Shown: one piece after another, positions 28,924 to 44,874 of the stretch
How positions within the stretch are numbered: the first letter of the stretch is position 1
Layout of the letters: each line of letters starts with the position of its first letter
Assembly (NCBI RefSeq): GCF_013377905.1
Contig: NZ_JABKAV010000010.1
Span: 1-64,000, forward strand
Length of the DNA stretch: 64,000 bases
Direction: 5' to 3'
Source: Hymenobacter terrestris
GTDB lineage: Bacteria; Bacteroidota; Bacteroidia; Cytophagales; Hymenobacteraceae
Position numbers and translations under genes: made by a program
The notes under the pieces: generated by a model
The model's database searches: none
The model's input: only the letters and a program-made list of their open reading frames with translations
Told to the model about the DNA's origin: nothing

Positions 28924-28931
28924 CTACCTTT
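28924..28931 (+). promoter_or_regulatory. -7 promoter box for the SRP RNA (TACCTTTG)
   Basis: TACCTTTG is an exact TAnnTTTG match about 5-8 nt before the expected 5' end of the RNA. Confidence 0.5.
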
Positions 28932-28935
28932 GACC

Positions 28936-29026
28936 CGGCGAGTCAGAACGACCAGCTCCTGCTGAATTCCCCCAGGACCGGAAGGTAGCAAGGGTAGGTG
29001 GTTGAGCGGTGCGATTTTGGCTCGCT
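28936..29026 (+). ncRNA. ffs: Signal recognition particle RNA, small bacterial type (4.5S-like)
   Basis: Recognised from the conserved helix 8 tip CAGGACCGGAAGGTAGCA, with a GGAA tetraloop flanked by the Ffh-binding symmetric and asymmetric loops. Outer stem pieces ACCA and TGGT flank it, and a GAGC/GCTC element with a long T run ends the transcript near 29033. The 5' end is set from the -7 box and is approximate. Confidence 0.88.
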
Positions 29027-29132
29027 TTTTTTTGCACCACGGAGTAGCGCGAATTTTTTTTGGATTGCACGGATTTTGTAGCCGGACCAATCTGCTCGTC
29101 GCTGACCTAAGTATACAGTTTGAAGAAAACAT

Positions 29133-38848: not shown

Positions 38849-38877
38849 TCCCGGTCTGCTGAGGAATAATATCAAAA

Positions 38878-38909
38878 ATGCCCCGACGGTTGCCATCGGG
38901 GTATTTTTT
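38878..38909 (+). terminator. Intrinsic terminator after the EcsC gene
   Basis: ATGCCCCGA pairs with TCGGGGTAT (one wobble), followed by TTTTT. It separates this gene from the riboswitch region. Confidence 0.85.
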
Positions 38910-39020
38910 GTGTGTATTGAATAGAAGGAAGAACGAGTTAAAATGCGCTTTCTGCCGCCGTTTACGGCACAGGCCGCGCGGTAAATGGGTGCTGAGAAGG
39001 TAGCGCAGACGGGCGGGTAG

Positions 39021-39051
39021 TTGCCGGGGCAGCAATCTGGTTCTACCTTTG
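39021..39051 (+). promoter_or_regulatory. Promoter of the sulfur-responsive operon (TTG-N20-TACCTTTG)
   Basis: TTG at 39021-39023 and TACCTTTG at 39044-39051 with exactly 20 nt between them, the Bacteroidota optimum. Transcription should start near 39056, about 24 nt before the riboswitch. Confidence 0.7.
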
Positions 39052-39079
39052 AGGCATCAATTCTTTCTTCCCCGAAGGA

Positions 39080-39178
39080 TTGTTTTTATAAAGAGGCGCT
39101 GAGAGACAGGCTCGATGAAGCGTCGGCAACCATCCGCAACCGCGGGCACGGTGCCAAGTCCTGACCATATAAAAACAA
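39080..39178 (+). promoter_or_regulatory. SAM-I-type (S-box clan) riboswitch
   Basis: The P1 helix TTGTTTTTATA (39080-39090) pairs perfectly with TATAAAAACAA (39168-39178), 11 bp. Between them lie the S-box landmarks in order: AGAGGCGCTGAGAGAC, GGCTCGATGAAGC, CGGCAACC and CGGTGCCAAGTCCTGACC. In this family SAM binding stabilises P1 and lowers expression of sulfur genes. No classical terminator directly follows P1; a coding leader begins seven bases later. Confidence 0.9.
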
Positions 39179-39184
39179 GTTACC

Positions 39185-39298
39185 GTGGACGCCTCCAACA
39201 ACGCCCTGCTTTCTTCCGCCGCCCTTATTGCTACGCCCGCCGTGTTCCGGCACCGGGCTGGTATGTGCTGCTGTTGGGGCTGTTGTTGCCGGGCCTAA
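39185..39298 (+). CDS. Cysteine-rich leader peptide (predicted attenuation ORF)
   Basis: A 37-codon frame beginning GTG 39185, seven bases after riboswitch P1, and ending TAA 39296-39298. It translates to an Ala/Leu-rich start, then FRHRAGM and finally CCCWGCCCRA: six Cys codons at 39266-39274 and 39281-39289. An in-frame TAA at 39170 limits any longer version, and GTG is the only start codon near the front. Runs of one codon near the end of a short frame, followed by a hairpin, are the hallmark of ribosome-stalling attenuation. Cys-codon leader peptides are known before cysteine genes in actinobacteria. The role here is inference. Confidence 0.65.
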   Translation: MDASNNALLSSAALIATPAVFRHRAGMCCCWGCCCRA

Positions 39299-39307
39299 TT
39301 ACCGGTC

Positions 39308-39325
39308 GCGGGCCACTGTGCCCGC
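39308..39325 (+). promoter_or_regulatory. GC-rich hairpin after the Cys leader peptide
   Basis: GCGGGC (39308-39313) and GCCCGC (39320-39325) with a CACTGT loop begin ten bases after the leader stop. GGGCC and GGCCC segments at about 39291 and 39352 could form alternative pairings. There is no following T run, so Rho or translational coupling may be involved. The rest of the gap to 39563 (about 240 bp) shows no other gene. Confidence 0.45.
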
Positions 39326-39563
39326 CTAGCCGCTGAGTAAGCGCGAGCCCAAGGCCCGCCGCTCCGCTGGCGTCCCCTCTTCCCTTTTTGCTGGATTATC
39401 CGCTTGGCCTGCGCAGGTCTGGTCGGGCCGTTGGGCTCGTCTGGGTTTGGGGCGTTTGCGCCATAATATGGGCTGGGGAGCGTCCGGCTGCGGGCCGGCA
39501 GGGGTGGCGTTGGCTGTGCTCAGGGGTTTTCTGCCTGCTTTTTCACCCTTTTTTTTCCTGGAT

Positions 39564-40562
39564 ATGACTGCTGCCACCAAGCCTATTGGCATCTACTTCG
39601 AGCACCCCGAATGGTTTAAGCCACTGTTTGCCGAACTCGATCGGCGCGGGCTGGCCTACGAGAAAATCGACGCCGCCCACCACCTTTTCAACCCCGCCGA
39701 GCAGCAAAGCCCCTACAGCTTGGTGGTGAACCGCATGAGCTCCTCGGCCTACCTGCGAGGCCACGGCCAGGGCATTTTCCACACGGCCGGCTACGCCACG
39801 CACCTCGAGCGCATCGGCACGCGCATCATCAACGGCTCGGCGGCTACGGCCATCGAAACCAACAAGGCCCGGCAGCTTTCCCTGTTCGAGACGCTGGGGC
39901 TGGGCTACCCCGCTGCGCGGGTGATAAACCACGCCAGCCGGGCAGTAGAGGCCGCCCGCGAGCTGCGCTTCCCAGTGGTAGTTAAGGTGAACATCGGGGG
40001 CAGCGGGGCCGGCATCATCCGCTTCGATACGCTGGCGGGTCTGCAAGCCGCAGTGGAGGCCAATCAGCTGGATCTGGGCCTCGACCAAACGGCGCTGGTG
40101 CAGGAGTACGTGACGCCCCGCGGGGGCCACATTCACCGGGTCGAGACGCTCAACGGCAAGTTTCTCTACGCCATGAAGGTGTACACGACCGGCGAAAGCT
40201 TCAACCTGTGCCCGGCCGAAATCTGCCAGATTCCGGAGGAGCAGTCGGCCGAGTTTTGCCTGACCGAAGCGCCTAAAAAGGGTATTCAGGTAGAAGCCTT
40301 TACGCCCCCGGCCGAGGTAATCGAAGCCGTGGAGCGCATCGTGGCCGCCGCCAGCATTGATGTGGGCGGCGTGGAGTACCTGATTGATGAACGCACCGGC
40401 CAGGTGCTGTACTACGACATCAACGCGCTGTCCAATTTCGTGGCCGACGCCGTGAACGTGGTCGGCTTCGACCCCTACGCCCGCTTCGTGGACTACCTCG
40501 AAAGCCAGCTCCCGGCCGAAGCAAATACGCTGAAGGCCCCGTTGGCCGCATTAGCAGTCTGA
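39564..40562 (+). CDS. ATP-grasp ligase (RimK/glutathione-synthetase-like)
   Basis: A 332-residue ATP-grasp protein and the first full gene behind the SAM riboswitch and Cys leader. The ATP-grasp core is visible from NKARQLSLFETLGL and FPVVVKVNIGGSGAGIIRF (the Lys and Gly-rich ATP loop) to QEYVTPRGGHIHRVE and VDVGG-like IDVGGVEYLID, with YYDINALSNF as the magnesium-binding end. The fold ligates a carboxylate to an amine or thiol. Its place in a sulfur-controlled operon suggests a sulfur-containing or peptide product, but the substrate is unknown. Start ATG 39564; the upstream codons are leader sequence. Confidence 0.83.
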   Translation: MTAATKPIGIYFEHPEWFKPLFAELDRRGLAYEKIDAAHHLFNPAEQQSPYSLVVNRMSSSAYLRGHGQGIFHTAGYATHLERIGTRIINGSAATAIETNKARQLSLFETLGLGYPAARVINHASRAVEAARELRFPVVVKVNIGGSGAGIIRFDTLAGLQAAVEANQLDLGLDQTALVQEYVTPRGGHIHRVETLNGKFLYAMKVYTTGESFNLCPAEICQIPEEQSAEFCLTEAPKKGIQVEAFTPPAEVIEAVERIVAAASIDVGGVEYLIDERTGQVLYYDINALSNFVADAVNVVGFDPYARFVDYLESQLPAEANTLKAPLAALAV

Positions 40563-40617
40563 TTGCCTGTTTTCCTGAAAACCCGAAGCCCCAAGGCTTC
40601 TTAACCACTCTGCAACT

Positions 40618-41637
40618 ATGAAATTTGGCTATTGGATGCCCGTTTTCGGGGGCTGGCTGCGCAACGTCGTCGACGAGCAGATGCCCACCGACTGGACTTA
40701 CGTGAAGGAGCTGGCTCGCCGCAGCGAAACGCTGGGCTACGACCTGACCCTTATTGCCGAGCTCTACCTCAACGACATTAAGGGGCCCGAGGCGCCCGCG
40801 CTGGAGGCCTGGAGCACGGCCGCCGCGCTGGCCGCCGTAACCGAGCAGCTGGAAATTATGGTGGCCGTGCGGCCCACGTTTCATCAGCCGGCGCTGCTGG
40901 CCAAGCAGGCCGCCAACATCGACCTAATTGCCCCCGGCCGCCTTTCGCTCAACGTGGTGAGCTCGTGGTGGCGCGATGAGGCCACCAAGTACGGCCTGCA
41001 CTTTGAGCAGCACGACGACCGTTACGCCCGCACCCGCGAGTGGCTCGACGTGGTGAAAAACGTGTGGGAGCACGACCACTTCAGCTACGACGGCAAGTAT
41101 TACCAGCTCACCGACAACGTGCTGCAACCCAAGCCCGCCAAGGCCCCGTTCCTGTACGCCGGCGGCGAATCGGAGGCGGCCAAAGACTTGATTACGACCC
41201 AGTGCGACGGCTACGTGATGCACGGCGACTCGCCTGCCCATATTGGGGCCCGCATTGCCGACATGCGCCGCCGCCGCGAGCAGAAAGGGCTGCCACCGAT
41301 GAAATTCGGGGTGGCTGGCTACACCATTGTGCGCGAAACCGAGCAGGCCGTCAGCCGGGAACTGGCCCGCATTACCGACGTAAAAGCCACGGCTGCTGGC
41401 TTCGGCAACTACCAGCAGTGGCTGGCCGGTACCCAGCTCGAGCAGCAGGTGTCGCTGCAGGATTACTCGGTTTCCAACCGGGGCCTGCGCACCGGCCTCA
41501 CCGGCACGCCCGCCCAGCTCCAGGACCGGATCGGCGAGTTCGAGCGGGTTGGGGTCGATTTCTTTCTGTTGCAGGCCAGCCCGCAGCTCGAAGAAATGGA
41601 GCGCTTCTCGGAGTCGGTTATTCGGGTGCTGGCTTGA
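40618..41637 (+). CDS. LLM-class flavin monooxygenase (SsuD/SfnG-like)
   Basis: A 339-residue TIM-barrel, bacterial-luciferase-like FMNH2-dependent monooxygenase. It opens FGYWMPVFGGW, like dimethylsulfone monooxygenase SfnG, and has AVRPTFHQPALLAKQAANIDLIAPGRLSLNVVSSWW in overlapping pieces typical of the SsuD/SfnG group. HDDRYARTREW, FLYAGGES and GLTGTPAQLQDRI follow. These enzymes release sulfite from organosulfur compounds when sulfate or cysteine is scarce. That fits the SAM riboswitch and Cys leader upstream. It lies 55 bp after the ATP-grasp gene. Exact substrate unknown. Confidence 0.87.
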   Translation: MKFGYWMPVFGGWLRNVVDEQMPTDWTYVKELARRSETLGYDLTLIAELYLNDIKGPEAPALEAWSTAAALAAVTEQLEIMVAVRPTFHQPALLAKQAANIDLIAPGRLSLNVVSSWWRDEATKYGLHFEQHDDRYARTREWLDVVKNVWEHDHFSYDGKYYQLTDNVLQPKPAKAPFLYAGGESEAAKDLITTQCDGYVMHGDSPAHIGARIADMRRRREQKGLPPMKFGVAGYTIVRETEQAVSRELARITDVKATAAGFGNYQQWLAGTQLEQQVSLQDYSVSNRGLRTGLTGTPAQLQDRIGEFERVGVDFFLLQASPQLEEMERFSESVIRVLA

Positions 41638-41695
41638 GTGCTGGTCTGATTTTATTACCCCAGTGGGCCGCTACCGGCCCGGTTCATTTTTACCC

Positions 41696-41726
41696 GGATG
41701 CGCGCTGCGGCAAGCGGCGCGCATCC
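41696..41726 (+). promoter_or_regulatory. Perfect hairpin between monooxygenase and permease genes
   Basis: GGATGCGCGC (41696-41705) pairs with GCGCGCATCC (41717-41726) across an 11-nt loop, ending 11 bases before the permease ATG. There is no T run, so it looks like an intercistronic processing or translation-control element rather than a terminator. Confidence 0.55.
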
Positions 41727-41737
41727 TTGCTTGTTGT

Positions 41738-43207
41738 ATGCTTAAAAAATCATTGGAACTGCTGCGGCAGGAAGCGGCCGAAACAGGCAGCAACACCCTC
41801 AAACGAAGCCTCAACGGCTTCAACCTCATTACCATCGGTGTCGGCGTAATTATCGGGGCCGGGCTGTTTTCGCTAACCGGCATTGCTGCTGCCAACAACG
41901 CCGGCCCGGCCATCACGCTCTCGTTTATCGTGGCGGCCGTGGGATGCGCGTTTTCGGCCCTATGCTACGCCGAATTTGCCTCCATGGTGCCGGTGTCGGG
42001 CTCGGCCTACACCTACGCCTACGCCACTATGGGCGAGCTGTTTGCCTGGATTATCGGCTGGGACCTAGTGCTCGAATACTCGGTGGGCGCGGCTACGGTG
42101 GCCATCAGCTGGTCGCAGTACCTGCTCAATTTCCTGGCCAAATACGGTATCCACCTGCCCCCGCAACTGGTTATGTCGCCATTCGAAACGGCCACGCTGG
42201 CCGGCGGCGGGGGCGAGGTACACGGGCTGGTGAACGTGCCGGCCATGCTCATCGTGCTGGCCATTACGCTCATCATCATTCGGGGTACGGCCGGCTCGGC
42301 GTGGTTCAACGCCCTAGTCGTTACGCTGAAAGTGGCCGTGGTGCTGGTGTTCATCGGCCTGGGCTGGCAGTACATCGACCCCGCTAACTACCAGCCCTAT
42401 ATTCCGGCCAATACCGGCACGTTCGGCGAGTTTGGCTGGAGCGGAATATTACGCGGGGCAGGCGTCATTTTCTTCGTGTTCATCGGCTTCGATATCGTGG
42501 CCACTATGGCGCAGGAAACCAAGAACCCGCAGCGCAACCTGCCCATTGGCATCCTCGGCTCGCTGGCGGTCTGCACCGTGCTGTTCGTGCTTTTCGGCTA
42601 CGTGATGACGGGTTTGGCCAACTACACCGAGTTCAAGAACAGCGCCGCGCCGGTGGCCATTGCTATCGAAAAAACACCCTATGCCTGGCTGTCGGGCGCG
42701 GTTATTCTGGCCATCATCATTGGCTACACCTCCGTCATTCTGGTGGATTTGCTGGGCCAGAGCCGGGTGTTCTTCAGTATGGCCAAGGATGGGCTGCTGC
42801 CCCCGGTGTTTGCCCGCATCAACGAGCGGTTTCGCACGCCGCTGCAATCCAACCTGCTGCTGGGCCTGTTCATTGCCCTGTTCGCGGGCTTTGTGCCCAT
42901 CTCGGTAGTGGGCGAAATGACGAGCATCGGCACACTGCTGGCCTTCGTGATGGTGTGCGCGGGCGTGCTCATAATGCGCAAGCGCGAGCCCGACGCACCC
43001 CGGCCTTTCCGCACGCCCTGGGTGCCGCTGGTACCCATTCTGGGCATTCTCACCTGCGTAGTGATGATGGTGTCGATGCCCTGGGAAACTTGGCTGCGCC
43101 TAGCCGTTTGGCTGGCCATTGGGCTGGTCATTTACTACGGCTACGGCCGTAAGCACAGCAAGCTGGGCCAGCAGGCCCGGGCCGCTGCCGCACGGCCGGT
43201 GCTATGA
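41738..43207 (+). CDS. APC-superfamily amino-acid permease (CAT-like)
   Basis: A 489-residue, roughly 12-helix amino-acid/cation transporter. The N-terminal motif LITIGVGVIIGAGLFSLTG is the unwound helix 1 of the APC family. ISFVGSAYTY-like SGSAYTYAYATMGELFAWIIGW follows in shorter pieces, and FFVFIGFDIVATMAQETKNPQRNLP is the helix 6 substrate region, also quoted here only as a landmark. It belongs to the YfnA/CAT group, which carries cationic or broad amino acids. As the last gene of the sulfur-controlled unit it might import a sulfur amino acid or peptide product. Confidence 0.88.
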   Translation: MLKKSLELLRQEAAETGSNTLKRSLNGFNLITIGVGVIIGAGLFSLTGIAAANNAGPAITLSFIVAAVGCAFSALCYAEFASMVPVSGSAYTYAYATMGELFAWIIGWDLVLEYSVGAATVAISWSQYLLNFLAKYGIHLPPQLVMSPFETATLAGGGGEVHGLVNVPAMLIVLAITLIIIRGTAGSAWFNALVVTLKVAVVLVFIGLGWQYIDPANYQPYIPANTGTFGEFGWSGILRGAGVIFFVFIGFDIVATMAQETKNPQRNLPIGILGSLAVCTVLFVLFGYVMTGLANYTEFKNSAAPVAIAIEKTPYAWLSGAVILAIIIGYTSVILVDLLGQSRVFFSMAKDGLLPPVFARINERFRTPLQSNLLLGLFIALFAGFVPISVVGEMTSIGTLLAFVMVCAGVLIMRKREPDAPRPFRTPWVPLVPILGILTCVVMMVSMPWETWLRLAVWLAIGLVIYYGYGRKHSKLGQQARAAAARPVL

Positions 43208-43258
43208 CCCCAACGTCGGCTGGCACCACCAGCGCAGGCCGGAGGGAGCATTAGAATT

Positions 43259-43312
43259 CACATAAGCGACAGGGCCCCGACGATTAATCGTCGGGGCCCT
43301 GTCGCTTATGTG
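43259..43312. terminator. 54-nt near-perfect palindrome, bidirectional terminator
   Basis: Twenty-five-bp arms around a TTAA centre; the inner part reads AGCGACAGGGCCCCGACGAT. It lies between the convergent permease and small secreted-protein genes. Confidence 0.85.
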
Positions 43313-43331
43313 GTTGCTAAAATGGTCTTGT

Positions 43332-44798: not shown

Positions 44799-44874
44799 GA
44801 TTCTGTAGCTCAGCTGGTAGAGCAATACACTTTTAATGTATGGGTCCTGGGTTCGAATCCCAGCGGGATCACCA
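44799..44874 (+). tRNA. tRNA-Lys (anticodon TTT)
   Basis: A 76-nt tRNA including the encoded CCA. The acceptor stem is GATTCTG/CGGGATC, the anticodon stem ATACA/TGTAT, the loop CTTTTAA with anticodon TTT at 44832-44834, and the T arm CTGGG-TTCGAAT-CCCAG. Confidence 0.95.

Follow-up and report, generated by a model that had tools for sequence, protein, structure and literature searches.

The 64,000-nucleotide stretch of Hymenobacter terrestris DNA analysed here (contig NZ_JABKAV010000010.1; hereafter the window) contains an operon in which a SAM-I riboswitch, predicted to bind S-adenosylmethionine (SAM), is followed by a leader open reading frame (ORF) with six cysteine codons, and then by the genes of an ATP-grasp ligase, an SsuD/SfnG-like monooxygenase and a permease. 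This order had been proposed in an initial annotation, and both coordinates and profile scores confirm it. Sequence comparison shows that the riboswitch and the poly-Cys leader are a module in several Cytophagales genera and not a single case. We propose, as the probable reading, that the module controls sulfur acquisition at the RNA level through two inputs in series, and that its genes would be switched on only if both SAM and Cys-tRNA are low.

Geometry of the riboswitch and the Cys leader

The aptamer scores 70.9 bits against the RF00162 covariance model (gathering cut-off 44.4, E 1.5e-14), and by this score it is a SAM-I riboswitch. The 3′ strand of its P1 helix ends shortly before the start codon of the leader (Table 1), and this spacing recurs: the gap between the two is 5-9 nucleotides (nt) in 75 of 93 loci, with P1 helices of 7-15 pairs whose sequence varies among genera while the pairing is kept. 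For this measurement the metH and MetB sites and loci L245 and L024 were excluded, and 2 of the resulting 95 loci, with a P1 of fewer than 7 pairs, were then dropped. In the leaders of Hymenobacter and Solirubrum, the GTG start codon lies exactly 29 nt past a GGTGCC motif in 27 of 33 cases. Given that the P1 3′ strand ends so close to the leader’s start codon, translation of the leader is most likely what the riboswitch controls. An excerpt of PMC2258182 describes a SAM-I mode in which the ribosome-binding site lies in the 3′ side of P1; in this mode and in its gathering score the element is like other members of the SAM-I (S-box) family, but the start codon guarded here is that of a poly-Cys leader ORF, not that of a metabolic gene.

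The Cys codons of the leader (positions 39266, 39269, 39272, 39281, 39284 and 39287) form a run that is far denser than chance would give in the related loci. The ORF directly behind P1 contains at least three Cys in nine codons in all 33 ATP-grasp loci with a riboswitch, where dinucleotide shuffles lead one to expect 1.56, and at least four in 21 of the 33 (0.2 expected). These loci were unselected for Cys, and we prefer this test to a second one on 62 leaders preselected for at least three Cys, 41 of which have at least four in nine codons (0.45 expected). The Cys codons in these leaders are predominantly TGT (271, with 78 TGC), and those in 36 long window ORFs, some of which may not be genes, are mostly TGC (99, with 15 TGT); rows L137-, L142- and L181 were omitted from the 62-leader Cys-run and codon-usage analysis. 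At the ATP-grasp loci of Hymenobacter and Solirubrum the leader peptides are divergent except for their first codons and the Cys run, which suggests that the conserved part of the leader is its codons. As in leader-peptide attenuators, pathway genes are preceded by a conserved short ORF in which codons for the product amino acid cluster close to the stop. Mycobacterial poly-Cys ORFs are reportedly leaderless, as the title of Canestrari et al. 2020 calls them; the start codon of the present leader, judged by position alone, lies 134 nt past the promoter box.

The combination of a riboswitch with a stop-proximal Cys run recurs in samples of the genus, the family and the order, with runs of up to eight Cys. 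In some Cytophagales loci (L301, L303, L298 (-) and L299 (-)), two consecutive Cys leaders follow one SAM riboswitch; one such pair ends in RVCCCCCCC and then MRMRMRSCCC, each at its stop codon.

Conservation and gene choice

Orthologues of the ATP-grasp protein with 79-96% identity are present in 24 of 61 genomes of the genus, including the source genome. A scan of named genomes gave 148 relatives, and the best 80 of the 148, which were analysed, span Hymenobacter, Solirubrum, Spirosoma, Fibrisoma, Chitinophagaceae, Acidobacteriota, Gemmatimonadota and others. Among these best 80 loci, the monooxygenase accompanies the ATP-grasp gene in 77 and the permease in 19; in L177 the monooxygenase match is split into two overlapping pieces, possibly by a frameshift or an assembly error. 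A script detected both the riboswitch and the Cys leader in 33 of 36 Hymenobacter and Solirubrum ATP-grasp loci (the window and 35 named loci, with L158 excluded at a contig end). L168, one of the three outside this count, is cut by a contig end; at L181 the script misplaced the leader start, and the Cys leader is nonetheless visible. The co-occurrence of leader, ATP-grasp and monooxygenase genes, for which the initial annotation had suggested a search in Cytophagales genomes, is borne out in these relatives. In L211 (Cyclobacteriaceae), a Cys leader ending in NNACCCCR stands before an ATP-grasp gene lacking a monooxygenase match, with a cystathionine-synthase-like gene, named by eye, a few genes further on.

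The module is also attached to genes of cysteine and sulfate metabolism. We surveyed 193 riboswitch-like sites found by a pattern scan in Cytophagales, in which loci were sampled by score, sites partly by pattern and related species counted repeatedly, so that the class counts that follow are not genome frequencies. A Cys leader follows the site before cysH in 33 of 34 cases, before metY in 21 of 25, before APC permease genes in 17 of 17 and before ATP-grasp genes in 9 of 9, as well as before NhaC-like (3 of 3), SusC (3 of 3), metX (1 of 3) and carbonic-anhydrase-like (1 of 1) genes. Before metH (2 of 27), MetB/cystathionine-type genes (2 of 21), homoserine dehydrogenase (0 of 9) and metK (0 of 1) it is rare or absent, and chance ORFs would seem to account for the four matches at metH and MetB, one of which belongs to a spurious site. 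No gene class could be given to 40 of the 193 sites (8 with a leader), a group that includes some non-riboswitches; for the main classes, representatives were verified against NCBIfam and Pfam. The source genome itself has three SAM-I matches, at the ATP-grasp operon, at metH, where there is no Cys leader, and at metY, which has its own Cys leader ending in CGCCSACCCCC. The stacking of a SAM and a Cys input before sulfur-linked genes, also part of the initial annotation, therefore holds in relatives as well as in the window.

Expression platforms and the logic of control

If the leader acted as a classical attenuator, intrinsic terminators would be in excess between it and the downstream gene. 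They are not in Cytophagales: such terminators occur between leader and gene in 13 of 58 Hymenobacter-type loci (shuffle mean 13.5) and in 1 of 21 other Cytophagales loci chosen by hand (shuffles 0.6). Because there is no excess, the terminator platform, judged by these counts, is not used between the Cys leader and its gene. Terminators are common where a SAM riboswitch precedes a MetB/cystathionine-type gene (18 of 21 sites; 0.9 expected from shuffles) or a homoserine dehydrogenase gene (9 of 9; 1.0 expected), but metH sites have them in only 3 of 27 cases (0.6 expected), and the Cys leader is mostly absent there too (for example L002, L020, L241, L244 and L250). In a hand-picked list of met-type sites, 20 of 28 have a terminator, every one of them at a cystathionine-type or homoserine dehydrogenase gene. 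In the spacer between leader and gene, a motif search returned pyrimidine tracts alone, stronger than in shuffled sequences, and C exceeds G on the sense strand; L137- and L142- were omitted from the terminator count and from this search. No convincing conserved RNA structure emerged between leader and gene, either from single folds or from an alignment of nine Pontibacter-type metY leaders. Locus L193 was left out of alignment A3.

These observations can be assembled into the following scheme. SAM would stabilise P1 and thereby seal its 3′ strand, the A-rich part of the leader initiation region, so that the leader stays untranslated. When SAM is low, a ribosome would translate the leader and, given ample Cys-tRNA, run to the stop; with Cys-tRNA scarce, it would stall ahead of the stop at the Cys codons, which are mostly UGU, a codon rare in the window ORFs. 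The stalled ribosome would permit expression of the downstream gene, and a finished or absent ribosome would not. Because intrinsic terminators are not in excess, the output step most likely either is translational or relies on Rho, which would terminate transcription within the long, pyrimidine-rich spacer. Rho would fit the pyrimidine tracts and the predominance of C over G on the sense strand; a translational step is equally possible. SAM-I riboswitches normally repress. If SAM does so here, leader translation would be required for expression, and either signal alone would switch the genes off. An ample supply of either SAM or Cys is hence predicted to keep the genes OFF.

The initial annotation had also described a two-input sulfur sensor whose off state requires an abundance of both SAM and Cys-tRNA. 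Its two stacked inputs stand, but its logic is the opposite of what we predict: with P1 covering the leader start and no terminator excess, the inputs look serial. For that earlier logic to apply, the riboswitch and the leader would have to act independently on one step. There are precedents for independent, additive tandem inputs in the mgtCBR attenuators and in the tandem SAM/B12 riboswitches of metE (as given and cited in the accessible portion of PMC3641672), and the Met/Cys leaders of Acidobacteriota and Gemmatimonadota described below would be of OR type, in that a stall at either codon should give ON. With P1 lying on the leader start and no terminator excess after it, however, the riboswitch has no evident separate output, and we regard parallel inputs as unlikely.

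It is also conceivable that the SAM riboswitch at the leader start does the main work and that the Cys run passively slows the ribosome and senses nothing. The spacing from P1 to the start codon is indeed the most constrained feature, and the metH riboswitches, with neither terminator excess nor leader, imply that a translational mode exists that needs no Cys input. The Cys runs nevertheless recur amid differing sequence and before particular sulfur genes, which makes a passive role improbable. Still less credible, and in our estimate very improbable, is that the Cys-rich ORF encodes a functional small peptide and no sensor, either a metal-binding peptide or a precursor modified by the ATP-grasp enzyme and the monooxygenase. 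In its favour, the ligases close to the ATP-grasp fold include PsnB, which modifies peptides; yet the peptide is poorly conserved beyond its first codons and its Cys run, the number of Cys varies, TGT codons are favoured, ORFs of this kind are also found ahead of cysH, metY and permease genes, and in other phyla the leaders combine Met/Cys codons with terminators.

Several observations weigh against serial control as we propose it, or limit its reach. A pattern scan of up to 6 kb upstream revealed no convincing riboswitch or forward poly-Cys leader at L172 and L173, from two Hymenobacter species, or at the Spirosoma and Fibrisoma loci L185-L189; the few weak matches lie inside genes, the poly-Cys ORF of L173 is on the opposite strand, and L172 and L173 have SusC/SusD-like genes (named by eye) upstream of the ATP-grasp gene. 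Four of the 25 metY sites lack a Cys leader. In a class sample from outside Cytophagales, none of the 29 loci parsed from the 30 top-scoring SAM riboswitch loci, mostly metH, has one between riboswitch and gene. Inside Hymenobacter P1 is nearly invariant, and the covariation rests on other genera; in a few loci the longest helix detected is not P1. The metH sites show that a SAM-I switch in Cytophagales can do without both terminator and leader, so lack of a terminator alone does not point to the leader as the output. The interval from leader to gene yielded neither a conserved attenuator structure nor a rut-like motif, and the bias of C over G in the spacer may be a general trait of such 5′ regions. 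Finally, the AND logic assumes that SAM represses.

Leaders in other phyla independently support codon-sensing before the ATP-grasp gene, to judge from their composition. Among 39 loci outside the Hymenobacter and Spirosoma relatives, nine have Met/Cys-codon leaders, such as MAMCMCMCCC, before the same ATP-grasp gene: six in Acidobacteriota (L208, L217, L210, L215, L191 and L192) and three in Gemmatimonadota (L202, L205 and L224). No riboswitch was detected at these nine loci. Unlike the Cytophagales loci, eight of the nine have a strong terminator (shuffles 0.6), although the nine were hand-picked after terminators had been spotted by eye; five show an antiterminator pairing (p 0.033 or less), two of which, L208 and L217, are near-identical. 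In eight Chitinophagaceae loci there is a poly-Cys ORF on the opposite strand, which in seven (L194, L196, L201, L212, L214, L216 and L221; L201 verified) precedes a divergent SusC-like TonB receptor gene. A few weaker three-Cys matches in the same scan are probably due to chance.

Among the open PMC papers listed by our searches we recognised none on a SAM riboswitch with a Cys leader, and the closest known systems each share a part of the arrangement. The mycobacterial cys-operon leaders (Seliverstov et al. 2005, PMC1262725, as excerpted) share the stop-proximal Cys run, the lack of a conserved terminator hairpin and the pyrimidine motifs, and Rho is weakly proposed there; that excerpt describes no riboswitch, whereas here a SAM-I aptamer precedes the leader and covers its start. 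uORFC-8-2, a short upstream ORF before cysS in Rhodobacterales, also has Cys codons, but differs in having two conserved ones together with an intrinsic terminator, and no riboswitch is mentioned in the available text of PMC8632094. The Salmonella mgtA and mgtCBR leaders likewise combine a codon-sensing ORF with another input in the leader RNA; according to the same portion of PMC3641672, however, their signals are Mg, ATP and Pro, and the two mgtCBR inputs are independent. Within the same phylum, leader-peptide attenuation is suspected before amino-acid biosynthesis operons of Flavobacterium psychrophilum (PMC9723704), where the passages at hand mention no combination of riboswitch and leader.

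The ATP-grasp operon and the sulfur regulon

The features of the operon are collected in Table 1. The TAnnTTTG box of the candidate promoter occurs at a similar position in 31 of 33 related riboswitch-bearing loci, by sequence comparison, and matches the Flavobacterium sigma-A box given in the accessible text of PMC9723704; the left arm of the P0 hairpin is present in 32 of the 33. A terminator-like hairpin at 38870-38912 stands at the end of the preceding gene, and a long palindrome at 43255-43315 follows the operon. We presume a single promoter for the whole operon, in which the strong GC hairpin before the permease gene could lower read-through. In other Hymenobacter genomes, a permease homologue lies directly behind the riboswitch-leader module. 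A hairpin of variable sequence is seen about 12-25 nt ahead of the APC permease start codon where the permease gene directly follows the module (L092, L107, L135, L136, L137, L138, L140 and L149). Elsewhere in the window are a tRNA gene (44799-44871, + strand) and a Bacteroidales small signal recognition particle RNA (28929-29031, + strand).

Table 1. Features of the ATP-grasp operon and its 5′ region, in window coordinates
Feature	Position	Strand	Remarks
Promoter candidate: TTG-type upstream element (~39021-39023) and TAnnTTTG box (TACCTTTG, 39044-39051)	39020..39051	+	Sequence pattern
P0, 5′ hairpin (CAATTCTTTC ... GAAGGATTG)	39058..39082	+	3′ arm overlaps outer three bases of extended P1
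Extended P1, 5′ strand (TTGTTTTTATA)	39080..39090	+	
SAM-I riboswitch aptamer (RF00162)	39083..39175	+	Covariance model
Extended P1, 3′ strand (TATAAAAACAA)	39168..39178	+	Ends 6 nt ahead of leader start codon
Leader ORF, GTG start, 37 codons, VDASNNALLSSAALIATPAVFRHRAGMCCCWGCCCRA	39185..39298	+	Six Cys codons (CCCWGCCC) close to stop
Spacer from leader to ATP-grasp gene, 265 nt	39299..39563	+	Pyrimidine tract immediately ahead of start
ATP-grasp ligase, RimK/LysX/ArgX-like fold	39564..40562	+	Profile match, predicted structure
Luciferase-like flavin monooxygenase, SsuD/SfnG-related	40618..41637	+	55-nt gap after ATP-grasp
Strong GC hairpin, monooxygenase-permease interval	41696..41726	+	
APC-family amino-acid permease	41738..43207	+	100-nt gap after monooxygenase

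The ATP-grasp protein matches PF08443 marginally (22.2, gathering 21) and falls below the cut-off of the RimK family ligases (TIGR00768, 58.1 against 143.4). A search with its predicted structure (mean predicted local distance difference test score, pLDDT, 82) places the fold near ArgX, LysX and RimK (Z 24-27); it indicated no substrate. The second enzyme is a luciferase-like monooxygenase (PF00296, 200.3 against a gathering cut-off of 27.9), and by score it is neither an SfnG (TIGR04021, 240.9 against 382.95) nor an SsuD equivalog (TIGR03565, 170.4 against 518.2); its best PDB profile matches are 3rao, 8vw6 and the dimethylsulfone monooxygenase 8t0u. The permease matches PF13520 (193.9 against 27) and scores below the BcaP cut-off (NF053761, 559.5 against 690). 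The operon most likely scavenges an organosulfur compound, which the permease perhaps takes up. A plausible pathway is one in which the ATP-grasp enzyme tags the substrate and the flavin monooxygenase then breaks the C-S bond. We found no literature joining the ATP-grasp, alkanesulfonate monooxygenase and luciferase-like terms among open PMC papers.

Across Cytophagales, we lean slightly towards a broader reading in which SAM-I riboswitches use three expression platforms: a terminator, at cystathionine-type and homoserine dehydrogenase genes; neither terminator nor leader, at metH; and a leader-gating platform whose sole output would be translation of the poly-Cys leader, and which would form a regulon-wide serial AND gate, responding to low SAM together with low Cys-tRNA, on genes that acquire sulfate and organosulfur compounds. 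The sulfur regulon would then be split by signal, with methionine genes hearing SAM alone and sulfur-acquisition genes hearing SAM and cysteine. The operon would also offer a testable sulfur role for the widespread pair of ATP-grasp enzyme and flavin monooxygenase. Taken singly, riboswitches and leader peptides are familiar; here their combination recurs at several sulfur genes of a single bacterial order. If our reading is true, a riboswitch aimed at the start codon of such a leader, itself a codon sensor, would make a compact logic gate of natural origin.

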